DNA from: Colwellia sp. M166
GTDB lineage: Bacteria; Pseudomonadota; Gammaproteobacteria; Enterobacterales; Alteromonadaceae
Direction of reading: 5' to 3'
DNA: 64,000 bases
Assembly: GCF_024585285.1 (NCBI RefSeq)
Contig: NZ_CP040755.1
Coordinates: 124,001 to 188,000 of the forward strand
The notes beneath the pieces were generated by a model. The model searched no databases. It had not been told where the DNA came from and worked only from the letters and a program-made list of their open reading frames with translations. This document shows, piece after piece, positions 29,344-34,712 of the stretch (the first letter of the stretch is position 1; every line of letters starts with the position of its first letter). A program made the translations under genes and the position numbers.

Positions 29344-29386
29344 TATGAATGCACTAAAATTTTACAGTTAAAGGGGTAGGCTTTTG

Positions 29387-29914
29387 TTATTTTGCTCTAG
29401 ATTTTATTATATGAAAAGAATATGCCATCTGCGCTGCGGAAGCTTTATTTAATTGGGCAGGATCAAAATTAAAATTATTATTATAAGCCGTTTCCAGTTG
29501 CTCTACAGGTTTTTGAGAATCATTGAATTTTGTTCCGTCCTCCCAAGTTGTTTCAACTTGCACATTGTCAATTTGAAAACTGTCATCTTGGTTTAAAGTA
29601 AACTGAAAAGTTTGCACGTTGGAGGCGATGTTAAAATAAGAAGCCTGTGCTTGTTCTTTTTTAGATAAAAGGCCTTTAGCTTTTTCCACGAAACCTAAAA
29701 TTTTATGGCTACAAGTAAATTGCACAACCGTCACGCCATTGTCGGTTTCAAAGGTTTCCCAGTTGCTATCGTTACAGCTTTTCCAATTATCTAAAGCCTG
29801 ACCAAGTGTTATAGTTTTATTAAAGTCCATGATTCCATCTTTGACAGAATCGATTTCACTACCACAACCCGTTAATGCTAAAGCTACTGGTAAAACTAAA
29901 AGTGCTTTTTTCAT
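29387..29914 (-). CDS. Small lipoprotein of unknown function, probable former gene cassette
   Basis: A 175-aa protein with a clear lipoprotein signal, lipobox LTGC with Cys17. The mature part is hydrophilic and has two Cys (CNDSNW, QFTCSHK) that could form a disulfide. No known domain was recognised. A good GGAGAAAG site lies 8 bp upstream. Reading in the gene's direction, its start is 55 bp after a GTTAGGC box (29975 to 29969), the typical R' end of an attC. Its stop codon TAA is part of a TAAC, as often at the R'' end of a cassette, but the rest of that attC is missing. Confidence 0.7.
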   Translation of the reverse strand: MKKALLVLPVALALTGCGSEIDSVKDGIMDFNKTITLGQALDNWKSCNDSNWETFETDNGVTVVQFTCSHKILGFVEKAKGLLSKKEQAQASYFNIASNVQTFQFTLNQDDSFQIDNVQVETTWEDGTKFNDSQKPVEQLETAYNNNFNFDPAQLNKASAAQMAYSFHIIKSRAK

Positions 29915-29975
29915 ATTTCTTTCTCCACGTCCTGTGAATGTATGGATGCTAGGCTTGGACGCATAAAAGCCTAAC

Positions 29976-31836
29976 GAGCCTGTAGAATTACTCGTTTTTA
30001 TTAAAATTAAATAATGAAAATACTCTAACTGGATTATTTTCTTTTAACAATCAAAAACGTTTACGTTTTTGCCGATTTTAATTTTGCATCGTTAAACATT
30101 TATTAATGGTGATGACTAAGTTGTTAATGTAGTTTTTAGGCTATTTTTGTGGTGTGATGTTAGGGTTTTAGGCCCTAATGCAGGCGACTTCTTAACTTTT
30201 CAATGTTATGAACAAGGCAATACATTTGCCATTGGGTGTTCACTTTATCTTGCCCGCGCAAGGTGAATTTATTCATGCCTTTGTTGACAGTAATATTGCC
30301 AAATATGGGTTCTATTGCGCCTAACCTTTTACTGTATTGCCGTCGCCCAATTGAACTGTCTATTTTTACCTTCATTCGGTCACTGTGACTGATATTTTGC
30401 GCTAGGTTTGTTAAGAACTGGACTTGTCGACCGGTTGATTTAGGGGGCTTTCGCATACATTGCCTTTGTAATGGACAAACGCGACAGTCTTTTAAATATC
30501 CCGTAAATCGACTGTAGCTTCTGCCATCAGTGATAATGCCCGCACTTTGTCGCCATAGGGGTTTGCCCGCAGGGCAAACACAGGTATTAGTTGTGGGGTC
30601 AAAATGAAAACTCTCGCGCGTGAATAATCGAGGCCTGCCTTTACTGCGTTTTAATCGCCGTTTCTCTTGCTCGGTATGATAGGTTTCACTGGTTTTAAAA
30701 AGCGGGTTTCGACTTCTAAATTGTGTATCCGCGATATAACTGTCTAACCCGGTTGTGGCGATATATTCAAGGTTAGCTTCACTATGAAAGCCGCTGTCTG
30801 CGGTAAATTTAGCGGTTTCAAAAGCGTTTGGCGTACCGAGTTTTTCTAATTGATGATGAAGTTGTTCTATGGCAGGTTTTAAGGTTTGTTGCTCGCCAAC
30901 ACTGCCCCATGTTTGCGCTTGAAGAATGATTTGATGCCGGTCGTCGTTAATGGCAATACCGTTATAACCTTGAATGGTGCCTTTGCTGGTGGTCATTTTA
31001 GCGCTGTCGTTATCGGTAATATTGCTTTTCACGGGTTTACCTCGGCTACCGAGTTTTTCCTGATGAGTAGCCATGAACTCGCTGATTTTACTGGCGCTAT
31101 TATCAAGTTTCGCTTTTTGCTTTAAGTCATGGCTGACTTCATCACCGCTCATGCCATCTTGTGCTTGATGCCTCGCCAATATACGTTGGCTGGCTTTACG
31201 TAATTTCACTTCCTTACGCTTTAGCTCTTCAAACGTGCCACTGTATTCCTTACTCGCGTTTGATTTGATTTTACAACCATCGATAGCAAACATATGGCGA
31301 CCAATGAGGCCTTCTTTATCACATATCATTAATACTTGGGTAAATAGCGGTTCAATTTGGTCTTTCATCCGCGCGACGAATGCGGCAATCGATGTGTAAT
31401 GTGGCTGAACATCACCCGATAAACTCATAAAGGTAATGTTCGTTTCACAGGCGTTGGCAATGCGGCGACTACTGATAAAGCCACGAGAATAACCAAAGAG
31501 GATTATTTTTAGCATCACGGACGGAGAATAGGCGGCTGCGCCGCCTTTATCGTTACAATACCATTGTTCAAAGCCCGATAAATCAAGATGGTTATCAACA
31601 ATATGCGCAAGCGCATATTCAAAGGTGCCGGGGATTATTTACTGTGAAAAATCAATGGGAATGAATTTACTTTGACAGGATAAATCAGGTTTATAGTTAG
31701 CCATGTGAATTCACTTTCGCCGGATAATATCTATTAGATCACAGACAAGAATATCGCGTAAGGTTAAAAAACAAACAAATCACAAAATATAAAAAAAAAC
31801 GTAAAAACGTCTTTTTTGGAGAAATTCTACAGCCTC
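29976..31836. mobile_element. IS1182-family insertion sequence, 1861 bp, inserted in an attC R' box
   Basis: Terminal inverted repeats: left GAGCCTGTAGAATTACTC (29976 on), right end reading inward from 31836 GAGGCTGTAGAATTTCTC, 16 of 18 identical. Both ends are flanked by AAC (29973-29975 and 31837-31839), compatible with a 3-bp target duplication. Removing the element joins GCCTAAC to GCCGTTTTAAGCGGC, restoring a canonical attC end. It carries one minus-strand transposase reading frame, interrupted by a stop near its start. Confidence 0.85.
30175..31704 (-). pseudogene. IS1182-family transposase with an early in-frame stop
   Basis: The full frame would run from ATG 31704 (MANYKPDLSCQSKFIPIDFS) to 30175, about 509 codons. 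Codon 22 is TAA (31641-31639), where the family usually has Gln, so a CAA-to-TAA change is the simplest explanation. The remaining frame from Met63 (31518) is intact for 447 aa. It includes FGYSRGFISSRRIANACE, the DUF772/DDE core with TADSGFHSEANLEYI, and a Cys-rich CVCPAGKPLW ... CRVCPLQRQC segment. Restart at Met63 would lose the N-terminal domain, so activity is doubtful. Confidence 0.85.
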
Positions 31837-31934
31837 AACGCCGTTTTAAGCGGCAAATTGCAGTTGGCTAAAATAAGTGAGGCACGAACAAAAAGCCAAC
31901 TGTAATTTGTCCGACTTGAAAACCCTTGTTAGCA
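31837..31934 (-). repeat. Integron attC recombination site (attC-A), R' box split by the IS
   Basis: Read on the minus strand, the R'' box TGCTAAC (31934-31928) is followed by L'' TTCAAGTCGGACA, a long hairpin core, L' TGCCGCTTAA, and the R' box GCGTT interrupted at its AAC. The arms 31854-31869 and 31894-31909 pair over 16 bp with one wobble, around a 24-base loop. The outer parts AAGCGG-CAAATT and AAGTCGGACAAATT pair except for two unpaired bases. Such extrahelical bases are what the integrase recognises in single-stranded attC. It directly follows the 63-aa ORF in its transcription direction. Confidence 0.85.
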
Positions 31935-31949
31935 GTACGTTGCGACTTA

Positions 31950-32141
31950 CTACGTATTAGCTAGATTAAATAAATAGAACCCAAAACCACCAAGTAAACT
32001 ACAGCCCAAAATAACCATGGCTGTAAGAGTTTTTGATTGTGTCATTGAGCCTAAAAGTGCAAACCACCACTCAAACTCTAATGCCTGTTTGAGAGTAAAT
32101 GAGGTAGGCATTTCTTTCATTCTCGACTTGTTATCATCCAT
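31950..32141 (-). CDS. 63-aa single-pass membrane protein carried as an integron cassette
   Basis: Unrecognised protein. A basic and acidic N-terminus (MDDNKSRMKEM) is followed by an amphipathic stretch with a WW pair and one clear membrane segment (residues ~39-58, LTAMVILGCSLLGGFGFYLF). It has a good GGAG ribosome site 10 bp before the ATG. Its start is ~40 bp after the GTTAGC R' box of attC-B, once the MITE is removed, and its stop is ~15 bp before the R'' box of attC-A. That is the exact architecture of a one-gene cassette. Small membrane proteins are frequent cassette cargo; no function can be assigned. Confidence 0.65.
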   Translation of the reverse strand: MDDNKSRMKEMPTSFTLKQALEFEWWFALLGSMTQSKTLTAMVILGCSLLGGFGFYLFNLANT

Positions 32142-32184
32142 AAATACAACTCCAAATGTTCAGTAAATTGATTGTACTGCTAAC

Positions 32185-32330
32185 GAGACTGTAGAATAAC
32201 TCTAATAGCCAAATTCAATTAAAAAACGAGCTCCTGTAATTAACTCTATGCGTTTTTAAAGCATTAGGTAATGCATTTGGAACCCATAAAACAGGCTGTT
32301 TTTCTTAAAAATGAGTAATTCTACAGCCTC
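32185..32330. mobile_element. 146-bp MITE with IS1182-type ends, inserted in an attC R' box
   Basis: Non-coding element with ends GAGACTGTAGAATAACTC (32185 on) and, inward from 32330, GAGGCTGTAGAATTACTC. The latter is nearly identical to the left end of the neighbouring IS1182-type element and continues with ATTTTTA versus GTTTTTA. It is flanked by AAC on both sides (32182-32184, 32331-32333). Removing it rejoins GCTAAC with GCTTTGCTAAGCGG, restoring the R' end of attC-B. It is presumably mobilised by an IS1182-type transposase. Confidence 0.82.
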
Positions 32331-32416
32331 AACGCTTTGCTAAGCGGCTAAAAATGGCTGGCTATAATTGCGAGGAACGAGCACAGCCAGCTGTTTGTGT
32401 CCGTTCAAGCAACTTG
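32331..32416 (-). repeat. Integron attC site (attC-B), larger part; R' split by MITE, R'' split by IS1111-type element
   Basis: Minus-strand order: (R'' half beyond the IS110 element), GCTTGAACGGACA, then a hairpin whose arms carry GGCTGGCT (+ strand) and AGCCAGCT. An L' segment TAGCCGCTTAGC and GCGTT follow. The hairpin occupies the same place as in attC-A, but the stem has changed in a paired way (TTGGCT/AGCCAA to CTGGCT/AGCCAG), showing that structure is conserved. CGG-C versus CGGAC again leaves an unpaired A. The full site would be about 100 bp. Confidence 0.8.
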
Positions 32417-32493
32417 ATACTAATTGAGCCTTCTCCCCGAAGTCTAGCACTGAGCTAAACTTCAAGGCGACCAAACCAAAAGGAGAAAGCTCA

Positions 32494-33537
32494 ATGAAAT
32501 TCTATACTACTTTACATAAATATTATTGCGGAATCGATCTACATGCACGACTTTTATATGTTTGCATACTTGATGAACATGGTAATAAAGTCGTTCATCA
32601 GAAAATAAAAGCCGATCCTCATCAGTTACACAAGCTGCTCAAACCCTATATTGGACAGGTGGTGGTTGGAGTTGAGTGCATGCATTGCTGGTATTGGGTC
32701 AGTGACTTTTGTCGTGAGATAAATGTTGAGTTTATTTTAGGCCATGCGCTTTATATGAAAGCTATTCATGGCGGAAAAGCTAAAAACGATAAGATAGACT
32801 CCTATAAAATTGCTAGCCTAATGCGCGGAGGGAATTTCCCACTTGCCTACAATTACCCAGCAGAAACACGCGCAACCAGAGATTTACTCAGAAGACGCAC
32901 CTACGTTATGCGACATGGAAGTGAATTAAAAGCTCACGTCGTAAACACCGACAGCCAATATAACTTACCCGCTCAATCACTTAATTTAAAAAATGTCAGT
33001 GCCCGTGACGGACTGCGAGATTATTATGATGATCCTGTTGTACAACGGATGATAGCACTCGACATGAACATCCTAGATTGCTACATCAGAGAGCTAAAGC
33101 ATGTTGAGTCATTTATCGAAGGAAAAGCCAAAGAACATTATGGTGCACTACTCAATATCGTTCGAACATTCCCAGGTATTGGTCAAATTCTAGCATTAAC
33201 CATTTTATATGAAATTGGCGACATCAACCGTTTTCCCAGCGTTCAACAGTTTGCTTCTTATTCACGATTAGTGAAATGCAAAGCAGAGTCTGCAGGGAAA
33301 ACCTATGGTACTAGCGGTAATAAAATCGGTAATGGTTATCTGAAGTGGGCTTTTAGTGAAGCCGCGGTGCTTTATCTTCGCGGTAATGACAACGCTAAAC
33401 GCTATCTAGCTAAATTACAAAAACGCATGAGTAAAGGTAAAGCATTATCAGCACTTGCACATAAAATTGGTCGCTGTGTTTACTTCATGCTTCGGGATAG
33501 ACAGGTTTTTGATGAAAATAAATTTTTAAAAGGTTAA
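32494..33537 (+). CDS. IS110/IS1111-family RNA-guided DEDD recombinase (transposase)
   Basis: A 347-aa protein. The N-terminal RuvC-like DEDD domain shows D15 (YYCGIDLHAR), E61 (VVGVECMH), D99 and D102 (KNDKIDSYK). The C-terminal Transposase_20 domain (residues ~220-310) shows FPGIGQILALTILYEIGDIN, FPSVQQFASYSRLV and SGNKIGNGYLKWAF, with conserved serines. It has a strong AGGAG ribosome site. IS110-family enzymes are known to use an IS-encoded bridge/seek RNA to choose the target. The reading frame is intact and both ends are present, so the element may be active. Confidence 0.92.
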   Translation: MKFYTTLHKYYCGIDLHARLLYVCILDEHGNKVVHQKIKADPHQLHKLLKPYIGQVVVGVECMHCWYWVSDFCREINVEFILGHALYMKAIHGGKAKNDKIDSYKIASLMRGGNFPLAYNYPAETRATRDLLRRRTYVMRHGSELKAHVVNTDSQYNLPAQSLNLKNVSARDGLRDYYDDPVVQRMIALDMNILDCYIRELKHVESFIEGKAKEHYGALLNIVRTFPGIGQILALTILYEIGDINRFPSVQQFASYSRLVKCKAESAGKTYGTSGNKIGNGYLKWAFSEAAVLYLRGNDNAKRYLAKLQKRMSKGKALSALAHKIGRCVYFMLRDRQVFDENKFLKG

Positions 33538-33989
33538 GTCGCACAATGGCGAGAGCTGAACACCTAACTGGATGAGTAAGAGCATCTGATTAATCATCGC
33601 CCCCGTTAACTGAAAGTTGATGATTATTATGCCGAGTAGTCCAAGCCACTTTGCTTGATTAGACTCGCCATTGGTGCGCATTATTGCAATGAGCAAGCGC
33701 GTTTACACCTTAACTGAGTCTTAAACTAACTGAACTGTGCCCAAAGGCACTGAGTCATCATGCTTGAATAGTACCAGCGTAAGGTTAACCGATAAATGTC
33801 TAGTGCCCCTACTTAACATATGGATAGACAGAGTAGGCAGTGATGAGATCACACTAAGAGAGCCTCTATATGTGTTTGCCGTAAACCGTTGTTTAATGGC
33901 TAATTGACATAGCGAAGTAGATGAACTTGTGAATTGAATGAACAATTAGCTGCCTAACGGCAGCTAAATAAAACCCTATTGCCTATTGA
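33538..33989 (+). ncRNA. Candidate bridge/seek RNA region in the right end of the IS1111-type element
   Basis: 452 bp without a convincing gene between the recombinase stop and the right inverted repeat; IS1111-group elements place their guide RNA here. Strong nested pairing is visible: an outer stem 33540-33553 with 33664-33678 (14 bp, one bulge) and an inner stem 33591-33598 with 33619-33626 (8 bp, 20-base loop). Further 3' sequence to 33989 also has small palindromes. CTTGATTAG at 33654-33662 resembles the reconstructed attC junction CTTGTTAG and could be part of a guide, but this is only a visual match. The 74-aa frame on the other strand (33721-33945) lacks coding character. Confidence 0.45.
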
Positions 33990-34010: not shown

Positions 34011-34712
34011 TTAGAGCGCGACCAATTCAGCTAGTTTTGCTGCGATATTTTTTATCGGATCTTCTGCGGTGTCTAAGCCACTTCGGGATCCAAGTAATGG
34101 ACTAGCATCGCGAAGATCATCATATGTTGTATCGTGTACAATAGGAACGAGAAGGTCTGTCGCTAGAAGTGCAGAAAGCTCTTTGTCGGCAACACCTTCT
34201 CCTGCAATACGATTTAAAAACGATGGAGTAACCAAAACGATACCGATTCGTGATTTTACCAACCCTTTATCGATCTCACGGAGTAAGTTGGAACCAAGGA
34301 GAACGTCCTTTTCACTGAACCAAACAGAAACTCCGAGAGACTCGAGAAGATCGTGTAACTCTTTAGCCACACCTTTTCGGTCATCCCACGCGTGACATAG
34401 AAATATGTCTCGTAAATCAGGTTTAGAAGCTCGTCTCTCTACGTTTGCACGAACTGGCGTGAGCGTTCGCACATCAGTAGAATTGTACGCCACAGATGAC
34501 CCAGCTTTTGACCAACGTGGTCTAGCGCTACTAGAACCACCGCTACTTCCAGAGCCGCTGGGGCGACTTCCGCCAGAGGAGTATGACGAAGGTGAATATG
34601 ATGATGGGGATGAGTACCCACCGTAGCTACGACCTCGGCTACTACATGCAGGGCATGCCGCTGCTCCACTCGCTGTACGATGTCCATTACTTGGTGCTGT
34701 GCATCTTGCCAT
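34011..34712 (-). CDS. TIR-domain protein with N-terminal Cys/His motif, candidate cassette-borne defence effector
   Basis: A 233-aa protein. N-terminus: C4-x6-H-x8-C20-x2-C23 (GAAACPACSS), likely a small metal-binding knuckle, then a Ser/Gly/Tyr/Pro-rich linker (~25-75). The C-terminal TIR domain (~102-233) shows DIFLCHAWDD (box 1), SVWFSEKDVLLGSNLLREI (box 2 region), GIVLVTPSFLN and a DKELSALL helix. Glu178 there is a plausible NADase residue. Bacterial TIR domains often deplete NAD or make cyclic-ADPR signals in anti-phage defence. It has an AAGGA ribosome site and visibly higher G+C than its surroundings. Its stop codon overlaps the R'' box of attC-B, the mark of a cassette. No Thoeris ThsA partner is seen. 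Confidence 0.82.
   Translation of the reverse strand: MARCTAPSNGHRTASGAAACPACSSRGRSYGGYSSPSSYSPSSYSSGGSRPSGSGSSGGSSSARPRWSKAGSSVAYNSTDVRTLTPVRANVERRASKPDLRDIFLCHAWDDRKGVAKELHDLLESLGVSVWFSEKDVLLGSNLLREIDKGLVKSRIGIVLVTPSFLNRIAGEGVADKELSALLATDLLVPIVHDTTYDDLRDASPLLGSRSGLDTAEDPIKNIAAKLAELVAL

Follow-up and report, generated by a model that had tools for sequence, protein, structure and literature searches.

Why should an insertion sequence (IS) and a short non-coding element with the same kind of ends occupy the same nucleotide of two different integron attC sites? The question is raised by a 64,000-nt stretch of Colwellia sp. M166 DNA (hereafter the window), bases 124001–188000 of a 4.84-Mb single-contig genome. 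Each insertion immediately follows the R′ GTT and duplicates this triplet, and the elements share one orientation. On comparative sequence evidence, it is very probable that this IS and its MITE represent a subgroup of IS1182 elements, with a DDE transposase, whose main insertion target is attC.

Two elements at the R′ boxes of two attC sites

The IS (positions 29976–31836, 1861 bp, minus strand) was assigned to its family by profile and has a second genomic copy, and its transposase gene (tnp; 30175–31704, minus strand, 509 codons plus stop) is co-directional with the cassettes. The window gene is interrupted by an in-frame TAA at codon 22 (31639–31641), and Pfam domains PF13751 and PF01609 (DDE) were found in the 447-aa ORF downstream of this stop; a second 1861-bp copy in the same genome, at 99% identity, lacks the codon 22 stop. 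The IS ends are GAGCCTGTAGAATTACTC on the next-cassette side (29976–29993, plus strand) and GAGGCTGTAGAATTTCTC on the attC side (31819–31836, minus strand). The MITE (32185–32330, 146 bp, minus strand) is non-coding and has ends of the same kind, GAGACTGTAGAATAACTC and GAGGCTGTAGAATTACTC, sharing both terminal repeats and duplication with the autonomous IS. An 18-mer end given in the initial annotation fits all four IS and MITE ends with 0–1 mismatch. AAC (GTT on the cassette strand) flanks the IS at 29973–29975 on the next-cassette side and 31837–31839 on the attC side, both identified as duplications from empty sites in relatives, and flanks the MITE at 32182–32184 (next-cassette side) and 32331–32333 (attC side), as read from the sequence. 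The boundaries, shared ends, and flanking AAC of that annotation were all confirmed.

Both attC sites lie on the minus strand and were scored with R2, a covariance model described below. attC 1 (31837–31938; 88.8 bits) has near-identical empty copies in other genomes; its R″ box, TGCTAAC, occupies 31928–31934, and its R′ box is divided between GTT (31837–31839) and AGGC beyond the IS (29969–29972). attC 2 (32331–32426; 73.3 bits) has its R′ box occupied by the MITE. A cassette ORF of 63 aa (31950–32141, minus strand), without a Pfam match, lies between the two, and naming the struck box R′, as had been done initially, is correct if cassettes are read on the minus strand, as this ORF suggests. 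On that strand, the IS is preceded by ...GGCGTT (attC) and followed by GTTAGGC, and the MITE is preceded by ...AGCGTT (attC) and followed by GTTAGCA. GTTRRRY strings number 153 on both strands of the window; the IS and MITE occupy the two that fall within these attCs, which are the only attCs listed by R2 in the window at E ≤ 1. Two genes of the genome score above the integron integrase model cut-off, both distant from the window. The R″ (5′) end of attC 2 is directly adjoined by an IS110-family element (in the region 32427–33660; transposase gene 32494–33537, plus strand), separate from the IS1182 unit; attC 2 has one mobile element per end, IS110-family and MITE, mutually unrelated. A TIR-domain protein gene (34011–34712) neighbors this small attC cluster.

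Evidence for the empty state is drawn from near-identical attCs elsewhere, because a search of 118 family genomes gave no empty ortholog of the window locus: flank 29345–29975 matched two, the genome itself and one at 77%. Uninserted attCs at least 90% like attC 1 contain CGTT once in 13 of 14 cases, and four empty attCs at 99–100% identity read GGCGTT followed by ATGC, AGCT, ATTT, or ATAT; the exception, a near-identical empty attC (L259), has GGCTAC and lacks GTT. The cassette beyond the IS at L128 has an empty homolog, GGGCGTTATGTGCCGT, in L108 (85% over 122 nt). GTTGTT was found in 0 of 80 uninserted attCs. On the cassette side of insertions, GTT is followed by A in 69 of 72 cases (four tandem cases left out), and the same is seen in 81% of uninserted attCs. 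This comparison identifies the duplication as AAC/GTT, in agreement with the flanks noted at the outset.

attC sites beside related copies

When up to 2 mismatches were allowed, the end pattern occurred in 46 of 98 related genomes; some of these matches are due to chance, as a reversed control pattern also matches. The loci fetched were real-looking matches among the matches listed, plus 37 loci with transposase relatives from Colwellia, Psychromonas, Psychrosphaera, Pseudoalteromonas, Marinomonas, Thalassotalea, and others; single 2-mismatch matches (L123–L126) were read as chance and set aside. R2 was built from 65 of 98 attCs without an IS1182-type insertion (one of its training attCs, at L127 5713, bears an IS110-like end), and is not wholly independent of insertions since its attCs were found with R1, which had been trained on 23 targeted attCs. 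Loci L070–L163 yielded 59 end pairs, of which 58 are distinct (L115 and L143 being the same), with single unpaired ends uncounted. Of these 58 pairs, 47 have the end of an R2 attC at a single element end, none have one at both ends, and 11 have one at neither. The position is exact to the base in 46 of the 47 and off by 9 nt in L131; 44 matches have E ≤ 0.01, and three weak ones (L107, L128, and L138) lie above 0.01. By comparison, an R2 attC end was present within 12 nt of 162 of 22267 other GTTs (0.7%) in the same loci. Among the 11 uncalled pairs, L081, L088, and L134 are tandem copies whose attC-side neighbor is another copy, L117 and L132 resemble attCs of other types, and the remainder are L075, L089, L093, L099, L136, and L144, the last a Marinomonas copy inside a coding gene.

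A model-free measure gave a similar picture: the median fold-stability z-score of 70–130-nt flanks was −2.63 for the 76 flanks on the GTT side and −0.62 for the 74 on the opposite side (Mann–Whitney p = 7e-13). A generic box-and-stem test across both clades (the second is described below) counted 30 of 76 elements, versus 47 of 600 controls, with 18 or more stem pairs, a weak test because R″ boxes vary, and the argument for targeting therefore rests on R2 and the fold z-scores. Combined with orientation and the empty sites, the R2 counts strongly support the initial proposal that this IS1182 lineage and its MITEs target attC; the flanks of other copies are mostly attC rather than unrelated AAC sites.

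Within the window's own genome, end-pattern and DNA searches identified seven attC-side ends, five of which abut one of at least 21 R2 attCs (150 of 3069 first-look candidates were scored by R2). The flank of the copy end at 260223 is attC-like by eye and was missed by R2, and that at 414404 has an attC-like 3′ arm only; fragments (e.g., 2450922) were left out of judgment. Neighboring the intact IS copy is a 303-aa ORF (L002 412–1323, minus strand) with a weak integron-integrase profile match, by our reading a tyrosine recombinase, and further subthreshold integron-integrase matches occur near attCs of this genome.

Orientation is nearly invariant. Of 51 copies that carry tnp and are flanked by GTT, 50 have this triplet 5′ of the gene, whose promoter side faces the attC stem; the sole exception (L246) is a reversed Catenovulum plasmid copy with a shortened gene. 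Five Psychromonas copies (L130, L131, L133, L141, and L142) have identical 18-bp ends and still exhibit the fixed orientation, and the outer 18 bp alone therefore cannot set it. Under a looser pairing rule that admits some false pairs, 78 of 100 distinct pairs have GTT/AAC on the two sides, the count retaining 22 without it, many of which were read as false pairings or fragments. Non-coding pairs in relatives measure mostly 145–149 or 175–178 bp. Head-to-tail tandem IS or MITE copies with a single GTT/AAC between them were observed in seven loci (L081, L088, L112, L121, L134, L186, and L199), suggesting that the GTT next to a first insertion can be reused as a target.

Proposed recognition of attC and joining at GTT

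In the mechanism that we propose, the transposase would bind the L′–R′ arm of attC (the C-rich/TTA/GGCGTT segment, with a possible small hairpin), GTT would be cut with a 3-nt stagger and the element ends joined there, and MITEs with the same ends would be mobilized in trans. In the attC-GTT-GAG junction the GTTRRRY core is kept up to its sixth letter, and an attC may therefore remain usable after insertion. Comparison of flanks suggests the L′–R′ arm as the best candidate for the recognized part, and it may suffice; some copies resemble the 3′ arm only, and the whole folded attC is perhaps dispensable. A folded single strand, as envisaged in the initial annotation, is a possible form of the target.

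A serious contender, somewhat short of an even chance, is that the L′–R′ sequence, a 3′ arm of roughly 20 bp, is recognized by the transposase in double-stranded form, and that folding of the complete attC is irrelevant. In the 25 bases that precede the insertion point, targeted and untargeted attCs are similar, and in the 3′ arm their letters are near-identical. When 15 hand-picked flanks uncalled by R2 were ranked with a matrix of the attC 3′ arm, 7 of the 10 from the window subclade (L075, L093, L099, L103, L132, L144, and L246) fell in the best 3% of 18587 GTTR sites, a background that includes the attCs themselves; L093 ends in TTT and L099 in GCT. Set against this reading, most insertions have the remainder of the attC as well (47 of 58, and L132 may be a full attC too), and 0 of 5 diverged-clade flanks fit, with a matrix drawn from attCs of Colwellia relatives only.

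More doubtful is the proposal, made by analogy with hairpin use by IS1272, that the target would be a small hairpin, GCCYC-TTANN-GRGGC, situated just before the R′ GTT. IS1272 inserts at inverted repeats (PMC5678879, PMC4923244), and the five stem pairs of the candidate hairpin covary across 108 attCs (L070–L163), with 3.69 pairs versus 3.23 ± 0.06 with shuffled partners and a maximum of 3.44 in 1000 shuffles. However, targeted attCs are barely richer in pairs than untargeted ones by one count (3.98 versus 3.51; p = 0.045) and slightly poorer by another (4.15 versus 4.33), and IS1272 removes its target without duplication, whereas here the stem stays and GTT is duplicated.

Placement by the integron integrase, through an excised circle whose GTT junction recombines with R′ (G^TT), appears improbable. 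The R′ GTT is the triplet cut by the integron integrase, and recombination there would explain GTT on both sides and the fixed orientation without any duplication; tandem copies with one GTT between them also exist. Yet IS and MITEs share conserved 18-bp ends, which an integrase would not need, and a DDE transposase is present and conserved. In addition, L144, L224, and L225 have GTT on both sides without a visible attC, which is unexpected since one partner in integrase recombination must be an attC. Chance, or insertion merely tolerated in cassette arrays, which are largely dispensable DNA, has a negligible likelihood given dozens of copies at the same nucleotide in the same orientation.

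An IS1182 lineage and other elements that target attC

With the IS1182 profile NF033551, the intact transposase of the window lineage scored 257.9 bits and a diverged relative (L177) 272.1 bits, and IS1182 was by far the best family for both; the designation "IS1182-type" in the initial annotation thus stands as the best family by profile, although the intact copy lies below the curated cut-off of 270. Among 16 transposases, residues D142 and D303 do not vary and E465 hardly does, and by our reading these are the putative catalytic triad. Terminal repeats share a GGCTGT core, GAGGCTGTAGAA here and AGGAGGCTGTCCGA (L238) and CCAGGCTGTGTGAA (L239) in outgroups, and that of a third outgroup (L240) differs from this pattern.

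The L177 transposase, at 45% identity, is also located at an attC R′ box by eye, and when it was used in a class-level search, 30 of 369 genomes gave a match, including that of the window. A diverged clade, sharing about 40–45% identity with the window lineage, occurs in other families of the class. Among its 21 copies for which both ends were observed (L202 and L212, at contig ends, being left out), 16 are at attC by eye (L177, L194, L195, L196, L197, L199, L200, L205, L207, L209, L222, L226, L229, L231, L232, and L235), at attCs of other types, which range from long to short; in L222 the far flank has GAC in place of the terminal AAC. No clear attC was seen by eye at L198, L224, L225, L227, or L234. 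Genome G535 has four near-identical copies, two of which, L224 and L225, are flanked by GTT at each end and have an attC side without a visible attC; their other side resembles a cassette start (GTTATG and GTTAGT).

In a tree, 41 ingroup transposases formed one branch (100/100) apart from three outgroup IS1182 transposases (22–27% identity), whose elements lack an attC by eye within 60 nt on each side. Rows labeled as attC-sited occur in four of five ingroup sub-branches and are absent from the fifth (L202, L212, and L234); these labels were set by eye, unlabeled rows stand among labeled ones, and some branches are long. Three of 35 plasmid records carry relatives at 62–72% identity, and 32 fall below 60%, near 24–28% among the matches listed. 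A broader and tentative extension is that a DDE lineage found throughout Gammaproteobacteria reads the integron core site and leaves GTT both at the stem and at the next cassette, keeping the attC recombinable. If so, IS and MITEs would be passengers that integrons shuffle like cassettes rather than destroyers of attC. Elements that seek attC influence which cassettes integrons can move and express. The present ones also offer a way to ask whether a DDE transposase can read a folded or half attC, and whether an attC survives insertion.

To our knowledge, attC targeting has no earlier report for this kind of transposase. No report of IS1182 in attC was found among the papers listed in a literature search conducted partly on titles and the beginnings of abstracts, with most subscription journals outside its scope. 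Targeting of attC as such is established for IS1111-type elements and for group IIC introns; what would be new is that a DDE subgroup of IS1182, with its MITEs, inserts specifically at attC. The DDE transposase would represent a third, unrelated solution beside the attC-seeking elements found in print, namely RNA-guided DEDD insertion sequences and group II introns, making attC a convergent target, and here it would be a simple enzyme with a narrow, oriented one.

IS1111-type elements, as described in PMC11187229, are directed by a seekRNA to one end of certain attCs without target duplication. The IS1111-attC group (ISKpn4, ISPst6, and ISPa25) resembles the present elements in using one attC end and one orientation, but has a DEDD transposase, a seekRNA, and no duplication, whereas the window IS has a DDE transposase, duplicates GTT, and has no known guide RNA. 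An 11-mer, GGTATGACTCC, which starts IS110/IS1111-like elements, abuts an attC GTT in three of five places found (L127 5813, L101 991, and L119 2263), the same spot as used by the IS1182 elements; behind it in L127 and L096 lies an IS110/IS1111-like transposase of 374–384 aa (family assigned by eye).

IS1272 and other IS1182 members share the transposase family (NF033551, PF13751) and a preference for inverted-repeat DNA. IS1272 replaces hairpins of any sequence without duplication (PMC5678879), and the IS1272 transposon TnSha1 occurs in both orientations at one target (PMC4923244). In contrast to insertion at any hairpin, in either orientation and without duplication, the present elements are found mainly at attC in one orientation and with a duplication, the attC stem remaining intact, with GTT on both sides of the insertion.

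Group IIC-attC introns are likewise attC-specific mobile elements. They are retroelements that insert in the attC bottom strand and lie opposite to the cassettes (PMC7923331), whereas the elements of the window lineage are DNA transposons co-directional with the cassettes.
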